DNA of 64,000 nt, taken from assembly GCA_902547925.1 (NCBI GenBank), contig CACCQD010000006.1, forward strand, positions 1-64,000, written 5' to 3'. Both the position numbers and the translations under genes were made by a program. This document shows positions 34,468 through 60,212 of this stretch, in pieces. The first letter of the stretch is position 1; every line of letters starts with the position of its first letter. The stretch comes from an uncultured SAR116 cluster alpha proteobacterium. GTDB taxonomy: Bacteria; Pseudomonadota; Alphaproteobacteria; Puniceispirillales; Puniceispirillaceae. The notes under the pieces were generated by a model. The model was not told the origin of the DNA. It ran no database searches and saw only the letters and a program-made list of their open reading frames with translations.

Positions 34468-34544
34468 GCGCTCGTAGCTCAGCTGGATAGAGCACTAGAC
34501 TACGAATCTAGGGGTCGGGAGTTCGAATCTTCCCGAGCGCGCCA
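34468..34544 (+). tRNA. tRNA-Arg(ACG)
   Basis: 77 nt with encoded CCA. Acceptor stem GCGCTCG/CGAGCGC is perfect, D arm AGCTC...GAGC, anticodon stem CTAGA/TCTAG with loop CTACGAA (anticodon ACG), T arm TCGGG/TCCCG around TTCGAAT. The last 62 bases recur as a direct repeat at 37,797-37,858, which marks this gene as the integration target of the islet that follows. Confidence 0.96.
34483..34544 (+). repeat. att-like direct repeat, copy within tRNA-Arg
   Basis: The 62 bases from the D loop to CCA match 37,797-37,858 at 60 positions. This copy lies in the functional tRNA and is probably the crossover site (attL-like) of the AT-rich islet. Confidence 0.85.
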
Positions 34545-34832
34545 TTTTTCAAGATATTTTTACAGAAAATAAAACGATCCGAAGTGAGGATAGGTACTCA
34601 TTGCCTGCTCGGCAATGTCTATGATGATCCAGGCAGTAACCTAAAATGTCTGTGTCGATGAGAAAGCGGCAGATCTTTGCGGATTTGTTCCAGGCGTTTT
34701 TTTCTTAACAACCCAAGCAGCTAAACAACGAAAATCTGCGGTTACGGTTATTAGTTAATTGACTCGAGGCATGGTATCGCAACTTCTCTAACGCACCATT
34801 TTGTCTGATTTTTGTGGCCTAACACCCAGCTA

Positions 34833-35876
34833 TTAAACCTGGGAACCAAGTGCTTCTAATGTCAAATTTAGAACAGTTTTAGGCTCAATAGAGTTTATGT
34901 CCCTATTTTCAACCAAGTTGCTGCTTGCCGCGGACTTGATAAGTTTAGAGTCCAGCACTGGCAGACTGCTTGCGTAAATCCTTATACAATTTAAGCCCAC
35001 ACCAGCAGCAAGATTGATAAGACCAGAATCGTTTCCAACAAACAAATCTGATAGTTGAAGCAAAAAAATTACGTCATCTAAAGGGCTATTGAATATCAGA
35101 TTTACACGATCTTTTTGTCCACTAATTTTGTCAAGAATCTGATCGCCAATGTGGCGTTCATTTTTGCTGCCGCACAAGATAATTTGACATTTTGGAAGTT
35201 CGATAATTAGTTGCTCAATCAAAATTGCAAAATGTTTTGGATCCCAGCGTCTATCTGCAGTTGTGGCACCGACTCCCATAAAAATAATCGGCTTGCCTGA
35301 ACGGAAAAATTCCAATGAAAAAGACGCTTTCTTCTTCAGCGGCTTTATTTTTGGATGATCATCAGGAGGTAGTATTCCCCTAGCAGCCATTAATAGGCTG
35401 GTTGCATGCCTTGGGTGAATTCCCTTATCAGATGTTTTCAACATACCTCGTTCAGATAGGAATAAGTTTTGGGCACCAATGCCATAACCAAAACAACGTG
35501 AGATACCAGCAGCACGTGCCGCCGCCGCATAACGCCAACTTCGATGTAAAATCCAAACCTCCTGAGGAGATATTCGCTTAATTTCGCCTACCAATTTAAA
35601 AAATCCACTCAGCCCATCATGCTTACCTCTCTCACCACGTTTTGAACGATCAAGCATTACATGACGCAAATCTTGGTGCTCATGGAAAATTACCTCCGCA
35701 AACGAGGTCGGCTTTGTCATCAGAAAAACTTCTTTTGACTTAATGGCCTCATCAATCCAAGGTTTCACCCAAACAACATCTCCAATTCCAATTACTGGGA
35801 GAATGATTAACACTCTGTTTTTTTTTTTCATTGGGGTGACAAACAGTCTCTTCTGACTACTTTCGATTGATTTCAT
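34833..35876 (-). CDS. Family 9 glycosyltransferase (heptosyltransferase-like)
   Basis: 347 aa. The two-Rossmann-fold layout of ADP-heptose:LPS heptosyltransferases is visible: VLIILPVIGIGDVVWVKPW at the start, PIIFMGVGATTADRRWDPKHFA at the donor-site entry, and FVGNDSGLINLAAGVGL near the end, the last being the strongest GT9 mark. The start overlaps the upstream methyltransferase stop as ATGA; a second ATG lies at 35,831. AT-rich compared with the core. Together with the HldD-like gene it suggests lipopolysaccharide core variation. Confidence 0.8.
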   Translation of the reverse strand: MKSIESSQKRLFVTPMKKKNRVLIILPVIGIGDVVWVKPWIDEAIKSKEVFLMTKPTSFAEVIFHEHQDLRHVMLDRSKRGERGKHDGLSGFFKLVGEIKRISPQEVWILHRSWRYAAAARAAGISRCFGYGIGAQNLFLSERGMLKTSDKGIHPRHATSLLMAARGILPPDDHPKIKPLKKKASFSLEFFRSGKPIIFMGVGATTADRRWDPKHFAILIEQLIIELPKCQIILCGSKNERHIGDQILDKISGQKDRVNLIFNSPLDDVIFLLQLSDLFVGNDSGLINLAAGVGLNCIRIYASSLPVLDSKLIKSAASSNLVENRDINSIEPKTVLNLTLEALGSQV

Positions 35877-36556
35877 TTTACTTTTTGAATAACAATCTCG
35901 ATTTGGGCTAACGCGTCACTCTTCGCGGTTTGGTCGATTGGATAACCTCGGGATAGCTGAAATTTCAGCAACTTTTCTCGCACTGAACGGTTACGAATTC
36001 TTCTCGCAACACTAGATAGCTGTCTGTTCAAAAACGTCCTATGATTTTTAGGTTTTTTGTTCTTCGGAAACATTAAATCATAATTGTAGTTTTCGTCATA
36101 AATTCGGTATTCAACAACTTTTGCGTTTAGCAGAGACTCGCATTCACGCAAAATATCAATTGAAACTGGTGACCATGTATCATCCTTCCCAATTCTAAAA
36201 GTGCATTTGTGATCTTGATTAAAAATGGACGGCCAGTTAAACTGTTCATATAAATCTTCATGTGGGACAACGGTAATCATAAAGCCTCCAGGCTTGACTA
36301 GCTGCCACCAATGTCGAAGAGCAGCCTGAGGCTCATTCATATGTTCCAAACAATGGCTCGAATGAACACAATCATATTGCTCAGGTTTGCGGTACCTCAA
36401 AATATCATTCGCATCACCTTGGTTCTGGTCAAAAATCTCAGCATGAGCGACAACAGGATCTGAACCGGCACCAATGTCGATAACACGTCCACCTAAAAAC
36501 TTGGAAAAAAAACTGCTTGAACGCACCAAGTTAGTTTTACTTGCTTCAGTAGCCAT
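35873..36556 (-). CDS. Class I SAM-dependent methyltransferase
   Basis: 227 aa. The SAM-binding motif is VIDIGAGSDPVVAHAEIFDQ (motif I), and the segment YDCVHSSHCLEHMNEPQAAL followed by WWQLVKPGGFMITVVPHED marks a Methyltransf_11-like fold. Coupled to the GT9 gene, so it may methylate a surface sugar or a precursor. Acceptor unknown. It faces the HldD-like gene across a 357-base AT-rich gap. Confidence 0.8.
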   Translation of the reverse strand: MATEASKTNLVRSSSFFSKFLGGRVIDIGAGSDPVVAHAEIFDQNQGDANDILRYRKPEQYDCVHSSHCLEHMNEPQAALRHWWQLVKPGGFMITVVPHEDLYEQFNWPSIFNQDHKCTFRIGKDDTWSPVSIDILRECESLLNAKVVEYRIYDENYNYDLMFPKNKKPKNHRTFLNRQLSSVARRIRNRSVREKLLKFQLSRGYPIDQTAKSDALAQIEIVIQKVK

Positions 36557-36913
36557 TTAAAACGCCTTAAATAACAATTGCTTCATAGTTGGCGCTGATT
36601 CGAAACCGACGACATGATCTCACACCTATTTCAAAATCGTTCACCCGCTCACATTTCCATTTGTCTCACATTACAAGAGATTAAAATCTTATTAATAGTC
36701 TAGCTTTAAAACAGAAAATGATAATCTTTTATAAAGAATTTAAATCTTCTCTAGCGCAACACTTTTCGAAAGGAAACATCGCAATTTAATATTTAAACCT
36801 TAACCTTATCAAAAGTTTGCAACTGCTAGCTGATCGAATAAAATCTGCCGATCAGAAAAGATAAAATATTCGACCAAGGCTAATCAACCTATTCATCATA
36901 AAGTTGAAAACAA
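36557..36913. other. AT-rich intergenic region between divergent islet genes
   Basis: 357 bases between the divergent methyltransferase and HldD-like genes. It must hold both promoters. I see long A/T runs but no confident -35/-10 pair, RNA gene or further ORF. Confidence 0.5.
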
Positions 36914-37747
36914 ATGAAAAAAATACTTGTGACTGGCCATCGAGGGTTTATTGGACAAAACCTATCAACTCGGTTGATTCAGATCGGTTATGAAGTCGAA
37001 GGGTGGGAACCTGGAGGTTTTGGCGAACCTCCGGTGGCTGGTAAGGATTTAGTAATGCATTTAGGGGCAATTAGCGATACGACCTATCCTGTGCTGGATG
37101 AAATAATGATAAACAACCTAGATTTCAGCATGGACTTGCATCGGGCATGTATTAAACACAAGGTCAACCTTCACTATGCATCAAGTGCAAGCGTATACGG
37201 CGTCACCGATTCTTTTGATGAGGATGGCCCCCTTAGTCCGCAGTCGTATTATGCTTGGACAAAATATTTGTTTGATAGGCACATAACAAAAAATTTTAGC
37301 GATGAAATTACTGTAACTGGGTTCAGATACTTCAATGTTTTTGGAGCCAAAGGCGAAGCCCACAAAGGTAAGATGGCCAGCCCTTTTTATAAATTTTCAA
37401 AAGAGGCAAAAAGTAATGGAACTGTTACTTTGTTTGAAAACAGTGAAAACTATTTTAGAGACTTTGTTTCTGTCGAGGACGTAGTAGAAACCCACATCAA
37501 ATTGATAGAAAACAAATATTCAGGCGTCTACAATATTGGCACTGGGCACCCAACTAGTTTCCAAGAGGTAGGCCAAAAAATCGCCAAAAAGTATAACGCA
37601 AAGATTTTATACAGAAAAATGCCGGGCGCACTTGAAGGTCAGTACCAAGCATTTACATGCGCGAACACAAAAAAGCTTGATTCGTTAATCCAAATGAAGT
37701 GGTCATCCATATTAGATTATATTGAAGAGCATGAGTGTAATTTGTAA
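36914..37747 (+). CDS. NAD-dependent epimerase, HldD-like (ADP-heptose 6-epimerase family)
   Basis: 277 aa. Extended SDR fold: ILVTGHRGFIGQNL binds NAD, and the catalytic triad includes Ser/Thr near SSASVYG and the YYAWTKYLFD motif (YxxxK). Features specific to HldD are GAISDTT, RYFNVFGAKGEAHKGKMASPF and ENYFRDFVSVEDVV. The length is about 40 residues below the usual 310-330, but both ends look natural. It probably makes ADP-L-glycero-D-manno-heptose or a similar nucleotide sugar. Third gene of the tRNA-Arg islet; its end lies 50 bases before the att-like repeat. Confidence 0.82.
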   Translation: MKKILVTGHRGFIGQNLSTRLIQIGYEVEGWEPGGFGEPPVAGKDLVMHLGAISDTTYPVLDEIMINNLDFSMDLHRACIKHKVNLHYASSASVYGVTDSFDEDGPLSPQSYYAWTKYLFDRHITKNFSDEITVTGFRYFNVFGAKGEAHKGKMASPFYKFSKEAKSNGTVTLFENSENYFRDFVSVEDVVETHIKLIENKYSGVYNIGTGHPTSFQEVGQKIAKKYNAKILYRKMPGALEGQYQAFTCANTKKLDSLIQMKWSSILDYIEEHECNL

Positions 37748-37796
37748 GTTGGCTAAGTGTAGTTATTGGTACAATCAACCTTGTCCATGATTGTAT

Positions 37797-37858
37797 CTGG
37801 ATAGAGCACCAGACTACGAAGCTAGGGGTCGGGAGTTCGAATCTTCCCGAGCGCGCCA
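37797..37858 (+). repeat. att-like direct repeat (tRNA-Arg 3' fragment)
   Basis: 60 of 62 bases match the 3' part of the tRNA-Arg at 34,483-34,544, including CCA. The copy lacks the first 15 tRNA bases, and its two changes (T to C and T to G) disrupt anticodon-stem pairs, so it is not a tRNA. It is the expected scar of site-specific integration at a tRNA 3' end (attR-like). Confidence 0.85.
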
Positions 37859-37972
37859 CTTAGCAAGTTTCAAGGTCCGTGGACCGTGGTTCAAGTGACT
37901 GTTTCCCCAGATCACGGTTCTTGCATCTGAGCCGATAACCTTTCTATCTGCATTTAGGTAATGGAGTTTTAG

Positions 37973-38743
37973 ATGAAGTTTGATAGTGACATAGGCAAAC
38001 TGACGCGCCTAATGGCCGAGAGCATAGCAGGAACATCAAGGCGCAATGCTATTTTAAGTGAAATGCGAATACAGCCTGGAGACACTATCATTGATGTAGG
38101 GTGCGGAGCTGGTCATCTATTGCCTCACCTAGCAAAAGCCGTTGGAGGCTCTGGCAGGATTTATGGACTCGACCCCAGCACTGACCAAATGGAGCAAGCC
38201 AAAAAGCGATGTGAGGATTTCCAAAATATAAGTTTGATAAACGAGAATGCCGACAAAACCGATTTGCAGGACGAAAGCTGTGACTCTGCAACCTCAACAC
38301 AAGCTCTCGAATACATACCAAATGTCGACGCTGCTTTGGACGAAATTACCCGTATTATTAAGCCCGGCGGAGCATTCGTGAACATTTCCATTTTATGGGA
38401 TCATTTTAAATTCTTTGGTGCCGACGAAAAACTAAATGACAAAGTTCATGAAGCTTTCAGAGCGCATTGCAGTCATCAAATGCTTCCAATGGAATTGCCG
38501 GGCAAACTTGCGCATCGTGGTTTTAGTATGATCAGAGATAAATCGCTCGCATTTTTAATCACAAAAAGAGATGAGAATTCACCGGCTCGCTATACTGAGG
38601 CTGTCATGGCAAACTTTGCCCTGACCCAGGGTATGACCGAGGCAGAGGTGTCAGATTGGAAGTCGCAATTGGAAGCAGCTGAGCAACAAGGACGATTTGG
38701 TTTCACTAGCTTTCCAGTCTTGACGGTCGGTTATCTTAATTAA
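37973..38743 (+). CDS. SAM-dependent methyltransferase (UbiE/ArsM-like fold)
   Basis: 256 aa. Motif I IIDVGCGAGHLLPHLAKAVG, motif II LDPSTDQMEQAKKR, and IKPGGAFVNIS define a class I methyltransferase of the UbiE-like group. The C-terminal third lacks the cysteines expected of arsenite methyltransferases. Substrate unknown. It is the first gene outside the tRNA-Arg islet. Confidence 0.8.
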   Translation: MKFDSDIGKLTRLMAESIAGTSRRNAILSEMRIQPGDTIIDVGCGAGHLLPHLAKAVGGSGRIYGLDPSTDQMEQAKKRCEDFQNISLINENADKTDLQDESCDSATSTQALEYIPNVDAALDEITRIIKPGGAFVNISILWDHFKFFGADEKLNDKVHEAFRAHCSHQMLPMELPGKLAHRGFSMIRDKSLAFLITKRDENSPARYTEAVMANFALTQGMTEAEVSDWKSQLEAAEQQGRFGFTSFPVLTVGYLN

Positions 38744-38950
38744 TATTTGACGGCACAAGTCTAAAAGCAGACAACTTTCCCATCCACCCATACATGACGA
38801 CGAGGTTGTGCCCTTGGCCACATTTATGACCAACGCCTTCGGTCGCCCAACCGCCAATGGCATCGATGATGTCGGCTTGGTTAATCATCCATATCTCAAA
38901 ATCTGCGGATATACTCGCAATGGCATGCACAGCTTGTATGGCGCGCCGCC
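38736..38950 (-). pseudogene. Possible integrase C-terminal fragment
   Basis: The minus frame reads INQADIIDAIGGWATEGVGH, then KCGQGHNLVVMYGWMGKL. This is the pattern at the end of many tyrosine recombinases, where the catalytic tyrosine lies in VGxxYGQG-like motifs; here the Tyr position is Cys. The frame has no credible N-terminal half, since the acetyltransferase gene abuts it. If right, it is the dead remnant of an integrase close to the att-like repeat. The call rests on a short motif read by eye. Confidence 0.4.
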
Positions 38951-39454: not shown

Positions 39455-39625
39455 ACGGAAGGAATCCTCCTATCAGCATTAGCAATTAGCGTCATAATAC
39501 TTGTCATACGCAAAGTGCCAAGATTGCTTTTTTTTAAATAACGGCTGCTGCAAAATCCTACAGTGAGGACAATCCTTTTCAGAAGATTTTGGCGTCTGGT
39601 GCAGTTGTTTGTATTAAGGAGTTAG
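39455..39625 (+). pseudogene. Decayed copy of the 57-aa membrane-peptide gene
   Basis: In one frame it reads ILLSALAISVIILVIRKVPRL, then LFFK-stop-RLLQNPTVRTILFRRFWRLVQL, closely matching the small peptide at 407-580 (VIRKVPRL, RLLQNP, RTILFRG). The Gln codon of that copy is TAA here (39,539-39,541) and the expected ATG is ACG. It ends 4 bases before the DUF445 gene, whose ribosome site (AAGGAG) lies inside its last codons. A GTG at 39,440 could start a short truncated peptide. Confidence 0.6.
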
Positions 39626-42152: not shown

Positions 42153-42356
42153 TCAATTATCTTGCTTGTCCTTGGTGAACTTGCCATGACGAAGGCTCGT
42201 CGCTGAGATGCGTGCTCGTCCATCCGCCGTCCTAGCTCCTGTACTAGCCCCTCCGTGGAGTCTACAGCGGCCATTATTCCTATTGGCAGGACGCAGGCAC
42301 GCGGTACCTTGACGGGGTCCTGGCACCGCATCTTTAGCCCGGCCAGTCAGGCCCAA
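42153..42356 (-). CDS. HGGxSTGP-motif small protein (possibly remnant)
   Basis: About 67 aa from a TTG at 42,356. The segment GTACLRPANRNNGRCRLHGGASTGAR, then ADGRARISATSLRHGKFTK, matches short basic proteins with the HGGxSTGP motif that are common around prophages and mobile regions in proteobacteria. The usual N-terminal CGAxTR segment is out of frame, so the gene may be truncated. A TATAAT lies upstream at 42,425-42,430 on the same strand. A second, more decayed version seems to lie at about 51.1-51.44 kb. Confidence 0.5.
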   Translation of the reverse strand: MGLTGRAKDAVPGPRQGTACLRPANRNNGRCRLHGGASTGARTADGRARISATSLRHGKFTKDKQDN

Positions 42357-42424
42357 AACGCCACTCGACGCTTTTGATCACGTTGTTTTTTGTCAGCATA
42401 AATATCACCTTTAATAAGGGTGTT

Positions 42425-42430
42425 ATTATA
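42425..42430 (-). promoter_or_regulatory. -10 box TATAAT upstream of the HGGxSTGP gene
   Basis: A consensus TATAAT followed by AACAC on the minus strand. The same TATAATAACAC arrangement recurs at 51,431-51,436 before the decayed second copy, supporting a conserved promoter. No convincing -35 box. Confidence 0.4.
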
Positions 42431-42672
42431 TCGCAAATTGAGTGGCGCTTCGAGGTGGGTGAAACCAAGTTTTAGGGGGAGGTCCCGCGGTTCGCGAGCC
42501 GCGAGACTCGACTCCTTCATCTTTGTGAACTTTGGACGTGACCAAAAATATTCTCCATTCTGGAGCACCCATCAGCTTGATAAGTCTCAACATCTGCGAC
42601 TATTGAGATTGGTTGAGGAGAGCTTGTGAAAAAGAGATATTTAAGTAAAATTTTTTACATAGATAGGATAGA

Positions 42673-49650: not shown

Positions 49651-49790
49651 AATTTACACCAACAAACCAACGCCCAAGGCGCAAGCACCGCCACCCAACA
49701 GCCCTGCCCTCTCTGGTCCAAAGGCGGTCTGGGCCAGCAAACAGCATCAGTAACCCCGGTCCGTGGAGCGTGGTGCCTGGACCTTGGGCT
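49651..49790 (+). repeat. Dispersed intergenic repeat, copy A
   Basis: About 140 bases closely related to 58,332-58,460 (+), to the reverse complement of 55,729-55,850 and, in its first half, to the reverse complement of 52,021-52,110. The shared core includes CAGTAACCCCGGTCCGTGGA and GGTCTGGGCCAGCAAACAGC. Small ORFs across it are repeat by-products. All four copies lie between genes in the last 15 kb. Nature unknown. Confidence 0.75.
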
Positions 49791-55441: not shown

Positions 55442-56095
55442 AACAGTACCTCCATTCTTGTTTACAAAGCACTTTAGATAAGAAATAGCTTTATTTGCCT
55501 GTTAAAACGGCCGAGTAGGGATACCTCGAGTAAAATCAAAATCTCGTTATGTTGGCCTCAAAGCTCCTTTATTGAGCAACAGATATTACTCAGTACACGT
55601 CATATGCGATAACTAGCGAGTCATGTTGGATCACAATTTGGCTCGCACTGCATGACATCAAACTTTAAAATAAATTAAAATCAGGAACTTGAACCATGGG
55701 CCATGGAAAACGTGTTGCCTAGGGGTGGGGGTTCGAAGGCCATGGTCCGAGCACAACGCTCCACGGACCAGGGTTACTGATGCTGTTTACTGGCCAAGAT
55801 CGTCTTTCGAACGGGGGGACAGGCTCCTCAGGCAGAGGTGTTTCGACATCAGGCGTTAGACAAGTAGATTAATTTTTTCGTTTTAAATTTTCTAAAATTC
55901 GCTCTCTTCTCGTAATTGTTCGTGTGTTATAAAGGTGTTCACTATTTATTAATTATATTTATGCTTTGCTCGCCCAAAGCAAATCAATACCGTCAGGTCA
56001 AGTGTTTGTGTTGCATGTAATGCATGGATATCCCACTAAGCTTGTTCGATGCTTTTGTCTCAAATATAAAGCAGATTAGGGTTGACTTAGCATCA
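55442..56095. other. Gene-free stretch with repeat copy B
   Basis: About 650 bases between mcl and the TPR-sulfotransferase gene. Apart from the reverse-oriented repeat copy at 55,729-55,850 and a nearby CCATGG-GCCATGG palindrome, I see AT-rich sequence without a credible gene. Confidence 0.45.
55729..55850 (-). repeat. Dispersed intergenic repeat, copy B
   Basis: The reverse complement carries CGTTCGAAAGACGATCTTGG, CAGCATCAGTAACCCTGG and TCCGTGGAGCGTTGTGC, matching copies A and C. All copies keep the same reading of a short peptide-like frame (N/HAPRTxVTDAVxWPR), which suggests descent from one element. Confidence 0.75.
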
Positions 56096-58331: not shown

Positions 58332-58460
58332 GCAAGTACCCAAGCGCAATAACCCTGCCCCCTCCGTTCGAAAGACGATCTGGGCCAGCTAACAAAATCA
58401 GTAACCCCGATCCGTGGAGCGTGGTGCTTGGACAATGGCCGTCGAACCCCGGGCGTTGGT
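58332..58460 (+). repeat. Dispersed intergenic repeat, copy C
   Basis: Contains CCGTTCGAAAGACGATCTGG, CAGTAACCCCGATCCGTGGA and GCGTGGTGCTTGG, matching copies A and B. The similarity to A may continue to about 58,530 (GCTAAGCTGTTGAT). The rest of 58,283-58,607 has no credible gene. Confidence 0.75.
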
Positions 58461-58607
58461 TCAGCCAAGGTTGCAGCTAAGGTTTTGACAGATGGCCTGT
58501 AGGGTTGGTTTGCTAAGCTGTTGATATAGATGGATTCAGTCACTGGGTGGCGCCACGGCTAACAAAATACAACCGCCCATTTCTTGTAAGCATCTTTTAG
58601 TCAATTT

Positions 58608-59847: not shown

Positions 59848-59871
59848 AGGTTGCACTGAGGTGTGCAACCT
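59848..59871. repeat. Perfect inverted repeat 1
   Basis: AGGTTGCAC, loop TGAGGT, GTGCAACCT: nine perfect pairs. It lies two bases before a second palindrome that uses the same GGTTGC/GCAACC half-site. No T-run follows, so a terminator is unlikely; an operator or protein-binding site is possible. Confidence 0.7.
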
Positions 59872-59873
59872 CG

Positions 59874-59891
59874 CTGGTTGCGCGCAACCAG
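59874..59891. repeat. Perfect 18-bp palindrome 2
   Basis: CTGGTTGCG/CGCAACCAG without a loop, next to inverted repeat 1; the two share the GGTTGC half-site four times within 44 bases. The surrounding 59,691-60,212 has no credible gene. Confidence 0.7.
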
Positions 59892-60212
59892 ATGCAAGCA
59901 GTATTGATGATTGCTTTCCTTAGCGCTCAGCGACGCTTTTAAGATTGCTTTGGCACAAAGGTAGGATGAGTGATTTGGCTGTCACTTTACGACATGAAAA
60001 TCCTTGAAAAGCTCACTCAAGAAATTTGTCTCGATCCGCGTATTATTTGCGCCTTTAAAAACACACTTTCCTGACATTTTGGCTATAAAGCCGTTGTAGT
60101 GATTGAATATTTCTTCATTTTTTCCCTTAAACTCGGACTGACTTTTGCCGGTCCTTTTTTAATATTCGAGATTCCGCTTTTTGATTTTTGATCTGTTCCT
60201 TAAATTTTTGAT

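Follow-up and report, generated by a model that had tools for sequence, protein, structure and literature searches.

The sugar-gene islet at the tRNA-Arg(ACG) gene of an uncultured SAR116-cluster alphaproteobacterium is probably an old cargo unit of an additive island, devoid of integrase, which either spread in cis by accretion or was fixed. The window, i.e. the whole stretch of 64,000 nt analysed here, belongs to contig C6 of a 1.67-Mb genome (G000, 57.6% complete). It was compared with the same-genus SAR116-cluster single-cell genomes G001 and G004, and also with G002 and G003, the latter being the closest relative at core loci (dS about 0.1, core range 0.09-0.15 versus the window; about 95% identity upstream of tRNA-Arg). 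According to the mechanism that we favour, the 3' end of tRNA-Arg(ACG) would serve as the anchor of a cassette-accreting island in SAR116-type alphaproteobacteria. Tyrosine recombinases would insert units at tRNA-Arg, each incoming unit rebuilding the tRNA and displacing its predecessor outward, so that the latter comes to lie behind a truncated copy of the tRNA. The islet would most likely have spread in cis, excised together with flanking units that carry the integrase IntArg, as the arrangement in G004 suggests, and would have been left behind once these units were excised; otherwise it would have been fixed. This reading draws on observed features: the att copies, the homologues found in the same place, the tandem order of the units, the position of the integrases, and the end repeats together with their absence from the islet. 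From the att copies and the integrases, we infer that units are gained and lost by site-specific recombination; the accretion and excision steps are likewise presumed from sequence.

The intact tRNA-Arg(ACG), which is the integration site and the left att, was detected by ARAGORN at 34468..34544 (+ strand). The right att copy (37797..37858, + strand) corresponds to nucleotides 16-77 of this tRNA, with 60 of 62 positions identical, in agreement with the 62-bp repeat of the 3' tRNA-Arg with two changes described from the sequence alone. A repeat finder paired 34483-34553 with 37797-37867 (93% over 71 nt), and the right copy compared with the tRNA alone by blastn gave 96.8% identity with an E value of about 1e-25, which rules out a chance repeat. 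ARAGORN made no tRNA call at 37797-37858 in the window, and no further copy of the tRNA-Arg 3' end like the right copy was found elsewhere in G000. Since the longest exact stretch common to the tRNA and the right copy is 37 nt, short-read assembly should not confuse the two copies. The right copy of the window is identical to that of G004 at 57 of 62 positions, with 39 of 67 aligned nucleotides identical in the adjacent flank; such a well-kept copy beside a diverged flank suggests a recent recombination or a gene conversion from the tRNA. In G001, the right copy of the islet has decayed to 82%, and the left att copy before the islet is reduced to 17 nt in both G001 and G004.

The gene content of the islet, read from the sequence as a GT9 transferase, a methyltransferase and an HldD-like epimerase, was confirmed by domain matches. 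A left spacer (34545..34832), about 73-80% identical at the nucleotide level to G001 and G004 and lacking the TTGACACAG arm pair described below, is followed by a gene for a GT9 glycosyltransferase resembling heptosyltransferase II (34833..35876, - strand; Glyco_transf_9, PF01075, E 2.5e-17). This gene overlaps by 4 bp with one encoding a SAM-dependent methyltransferase (35873..36556, - strand; Methyltransf_23, PF13489, E 1.4e-11), and an HldD-like NAD-dependent epimerase is encoded at 36914..37747 (+ strand; PF01370, E 2e-30; Y-x-x-x-K motif). HldD and heptosyltransferase II (WaaF) are the best-matching curated families and solved structures for the epimerase and the GT9 enzyme, but the islet enzymes score beneath the NCBIfam cut-offs of both. 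The GT9 enzyme passes the GT9 Pfam cut-off and matches the solved structure PDB 1psw (E 1.5e-9), with 66.2 bits against TIGR02195 (LPS heptosyltransferase II; curated cut-off 134.6). The epimerase matches PDB 1eq2 (E 3.5e-38), with 211.8 bits against TIGR02197 (HldD; curated cut-off 274.6). Moreover, no canonical HldD above the TIGR02197 cut-off was found in the genus, most of whose genomes are incomplete. With both islet enzymes also under their cut-offs, the sugar may therefore be a different one. The islet genes probably serve to add a heptose-like sugar to LPS or to modify one there, and a role in surface-sugar (LPS) variation is likely. Of the proposal that these are LPS core genes, the LPS-like character stands, and in G001 the unit lies next to a block with an O-antigen ligase; a function in LPS core heptose is plausible, but both enzymes score under the cut-offs.

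The islet was also said to have no integrase, and this was borne out: a domain search found neither integrase nor transfer genes inside it, and a tblastn search with IntArg returned noise only (E 0.4 and worse), so that no relic of IntArg is recognisable there. Between attL and attR, the islet thus has the anatomy by which a cis-mobilizable element (CIME) is defined, i.e. both att sites without integrase or transfer genes. As for alternative end repeats, no 9-mer is common to both islet ends in G001 or G004; the two islet ends in the window have two 9-mers in common, probably by chance. A short inverted repeat (CAATCA...TGATTG, 37772-37793) is similar in G001 and partly kept in G004; it was rejected as a recombinase signal, as nothing links it to a recombinase.

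The islet aligns from att to att with G001 and G004, at the same tRNA-Arg and with 83% nucleotide identity. The three-gene cargo next to tRNA-Arg, which the sequence-only reading had proposed to look for, is therefore present in two relatives, and these homologues support its claim of a scar of the tyrosine-recombinase type at a tRNA 3' end. The same genes in place without the repeat would have spoken against that claim; both relatives carry the repeat. In G003, the islet is absent at this tRNA and no close GT9 gene was found anywhere in the genome. Outside the genus, no match to the islet GT9 exceeded about 52% identity among 198 genomes. The dS values relative to G001 and G004 are 0.47 and 0.35 for the GT9 gene, 0.40 and 0.56 for the methyltransferase gene, and 1.43 and 1.15 for the epimerase gene. 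This range (0.35-1.43) is of the same, genus-level order as that of the core (0.51-1.16), so neither genome was a recent donor of the unit. The GT9 and methyltransferase genes are nearly equidistant among the window, G001 and G004 (dS 0.35-0.56), whereas the dS of the epimerase gene tracks the core tree (1.43, 1.15, 0.46); this mosaic suggests recombination within the islet.

The mosaic would also fit a small surface-sugar replacement island exchanged by homologous recombination, with the tRNA and core on the left and the att copies or core on the right serving as homology. Gene sets of the same kind occur away from the tRNA, which makes homologous exchange possible. In family f2 (G076), a GT9-methyltransferase-epimerase cluster with the same divergent arrangement lies away from this tRNA; in G002, a methyltransferase gene (78%) and a diverged GT9 gene (46%) are found beside an O-antigen ligase, with no tRNA. 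However, in three genomes the limits of the unit coincide exactly with att copies, and its neighbours are other tRNA-bounded units; we consider this reading unlikely.

At the scale of the order, this tRNA is a hotspot of tandem units: a tRNA-Arg match was found in all the genomes searched (101 out of 101), many of which show additional, truncated copies (about 50-66 nt) downstream. Such tandem repeats of the tRNA 3' end occur in many genera. Two marks of an additive island are seen here, namely content that varies among related genomes at the corresponding position, and units delimited by repeats of the tRNA 3' end. A decayed tRNA gene in an ordinary tandem array would be another source of the second copy, and a tandem pair does exist: in G001 (L038 5847-6076), tRNA-Arg(ACG) and tRNA-Arg(TCG) lie 153 nt apart and differ by one base, in the anticodon, and G002 (L039/L144) has the start of a second tRNA-Arg copy at the same spacing. 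This pair looks like an isoacceptor made by duplication. Yet G001 has the partial copy of the islet in addition to the tandem tRNA, and in several genomes the copies begin at nucleotides 16-20 and bound different cargo. An ancient tandem tRNA array, the other outcome that could have undone the reading of an insertion, is contradicted by these partial copies and appears extremely improbable. The island of G001 also includes a tRNA-Ser(CGA) gene (L038 7345-7433), between tRNA-Arg and the islet.

Among the loci read, IntArg is a tRNA-Arg-specific tyrosine recombinase of roughly 330 aa (PF00589), encoded on the same strand as the tRNA in many genera. In about 20 of the 27 clade members, it starts about 103 nt (93-106) beyond tRNA-Arg or a copy of it; in other genomes, a second recombinase family with a DUF6538 domain, IntD, takes its place. 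Only two distant IntArg relatives (35% and 31%) were found in viral contigs, and a phage origin of IntArg was rejected on this basis. In the IntArg unit of G004, the integrase has next to it a gene that weakly matches REP_ORF2-G2P (rolling-circle Rep; L041 5121-5675), and a similar Rep-like gene occurs at the same place in the first unit of G040 (L045), hinting at a replicating free form.

All the IntArg units examined display TTGACACAG repeats at one or both ends. At the left end, this motif is found twice, 11 nt apart, at +67 and +78 after the tRNA end (17 out of 19 units), and one further unit has a single site. At the right end, all 8 of the 8 ends have at least one motif ahead of the right copy, between -72 and -89. 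On the model of other tyrosine integrases, the repeats are probably arm-type binding sites of IntArg; the left pair could alternatively serve the integrase promoter. None of the nine integrase-less units, including the islet in the window, G001 and G004, has a TTGACACAG pair at either end, and their single mismatched matches are at chance level. The islet is thus not a cut-down IntArg element with intact ends, and lacking both an integrase and the presumed arm sites, it cannot move by itself.

This result bears directly on the suggestion that the islet is a minimal element, moved in trans by an IntArg made elsewhere in the cell. The right copy spans from about nucleotides 16-20 of the tRNA, the same extent as the copies of IntArg units, which would fit this suggestion. 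However, IntArg units have TTGACACAG ends and the islet has none, and IntArg was not found in G000 (57.6% complete), G002 or G003. The suggestion is therefore unsupported, and such movement is very unlikely.

The same absence of integrase and arms is expected of a dead relic, i.e. a former integrase element that lost its integration module and its arms by deletion, its cargo being kept by selection or drift without further mobility. The anatomy would be that of the reading that we prefer, with a difference in the last step only, and the core-like divergence from G001 and G004, the decay of the right copy to 82% in G001 and the 17 nt left of the left copy in G001 and G004 would also fit. Against it, the islet is missing in G003, the closest relative at core loci, and its right copy in the window retains 97% identity with the tRNA beside a flank that differs between relatives at about 40% of positions, which suggests recent recombination or conversion. 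We give this dead relic somewhat less than an even chance.

The old cargo unit of an additive island, our preferred reading, is best illustrated by G004, where the tRNA is followed in turn by the int1 unit, an att copy, queF, a decayed att copy, the islet, another att copy and the int2 unit. The spacing between int2 and the att copy that follows the islet is the usual one for IntArg, as would be the case had int2 once been located directly at the tRNA. In G004, the islet is therefore in tandem with same-site integrase units on both sides; in the window, only an IntD remnant is found to its right. Against this reading, no IntArg gene is visible in the genome of the window (57.6% complete), and the right copy of the islet lacks IntArg arms. 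Alternatively, tRNA-Arg might function as an integron whose cassettes encode no signals, with active capture and passing on of short units that have neither arms nor integrase (the lone queF of 0.8 kb, the sugar unit of 3.3 kb and others); this we hold to be quite unlikely. Such units would travel either as cargo flanked by an IntArg unit on each side, as in the interior of a composite transposon, or via another recombinase. The lone queF gene of G004 (preQ1 synthase; L041 6803-7579) lies between two tRNA-Arg copies. No DNA match to this unit was found in the four further members of the genus that were searched, and its repeated mobility was rejected, as elsewhere just ordinary-looking queF matches (65-78% nucleotide identity) were found.

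The islet is only the tRNA-proximal part of a larger region. The GC content drops from 54.5% on the left side of the tRNA to 39.5% within the islet, and amounts to 45.5% at 37859-64000. The islet is indeed AT-richer than the left core, as the sequence-only reading had it, but the AT-rich block does not stop at 37858, and an isolated islet bounded there is not what we found. AT-rich DNA runs to the end of contig C6 at 78466 (78.5 kb). The core to the right of the island comprises a metallophosphoesterase, an AEC-type transporter and a Wzy_C O-antigen ligase; in G001 and G004 it starts immediately behind an att copy, in G000 and G003 after a short tRNA-end remnant. In G000, these core genes lie on contig C13, preceded by 20 kb of AT-rich DNA. 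Provided that the contig is correct, the islet would be the unit of this larger region that lies nearest to the tRNA; the 37858/37859 join is taken from this assembly alone. The distance from tRNA-Arg to the same right-hand core genes is about 1.2 kb in G003 and about 7 kb in G001, with different units in G004 and much more DNA in G000. The direct join of 34544 to 37859 predicted for strains lacking the islet was not found in any close relative. An equivalent junction, i.e. the tRNA followed by the same 43-nt motif, occurs in G010 and, in weaker form, in G018 and G025.

This motif belongs to the inverted-repeat end (37859..37920, + strand) of an IntD-MT2 element, which adjoins the right att outside the islet. 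The decayed neighbour in the window further comprises the MT2 methyltransferase gene (37973..38743, + strand), with 94-98% identical copies on other contigs of G001-G004 and at different loci of the genus, and a C-terminal remnant of IntD, a DUF6538-type tyrosine recombinase (38780..38880, - strand; 78% amino acid identity over a short match). The element measures 2.1 kb, with long inverted repeats enclosing a 258-aa methyltransferase and a convergent DUF6538 recombinase (about 382 aa); about 20 nt from the 3' end of a tRNA-Arg form part of each repeat. It was located at 37859-38880 in the window, L087 3900-6140, L086 5140-7378, L052 1981-4240 and L053 2038-3470. Relative to tRNA-Arg, it is recombinase-first in G025 and methyltransferase-first in the decayed copy of the window, so the element may be invertible. 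Short repeat families (about 100-350 nt), apparently non-coding and some in both orientations, are also spread across the AT-rich region and many contigs of the genus (in the window, 39463-39624, 42157-42517, 49669-49790, 55728-55843, 58350-58560 and 59848-60160).

The islet probably belongs to the known class of tRNA-anchored additive islands. In a search made largely without subscription journals, we found no description of this locus in SAR116. Additive flexible genomic islands at tRNA genes have been described in Alteromonas (PMC5217437), and the fGI-2 island of Methylophilaceae has repeats of the last 20 bp of tRNA-Lys (PMC10872708). The SAR116 island shares with them its constant chromosomal place across genomes, its cassette-like content, the repeated tRNA 3' ends and, presumably, the site-specific addition and loss of units. 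It differs by its site, tRNA-Arg(ACG), and by end repeats tested unit by unit. Its surface-sugar cargo is of the kind that PMC5217437 assigns to replacement islands, here found inside an additive island, and bears on how marine bacteria may vary a surface that phages would recognise. The tycheposons of Prochlorococcus (stated size 4-200 kb; PMC10872708) similarly have a tRNA at the border, a recombinase of the tyrosine family and cargo islands in marine bacteria, but the islet is smaller and, contrary to the tycheposon criterion, has no recombinase inside. An order-wide, tRNA-anchored island in abundant ocean bacteria, whose integrase-bearing and integrase-less units can be separated by their end repeats, makes the travel of cargo units without integrase or arm sites testable. 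The closest match is that of the ssrA islands of Dehalococcoides, where 15 units without integration module were suggested to be cis-mobilizable (PMC3146451). There too, units are lined up in tandem beside a single RNA gene and each terminates in a copy of the 3' end of this gene; about half of them, like the islet, lack an integration module. The Dehalococcoides islands rely on a serine recombinase, ssrA and 20-bp repeats, whereas in SAR116 the recombinases are of the tyrosine type, the site is a tRNA and the repeats measure about 50-66 nt.
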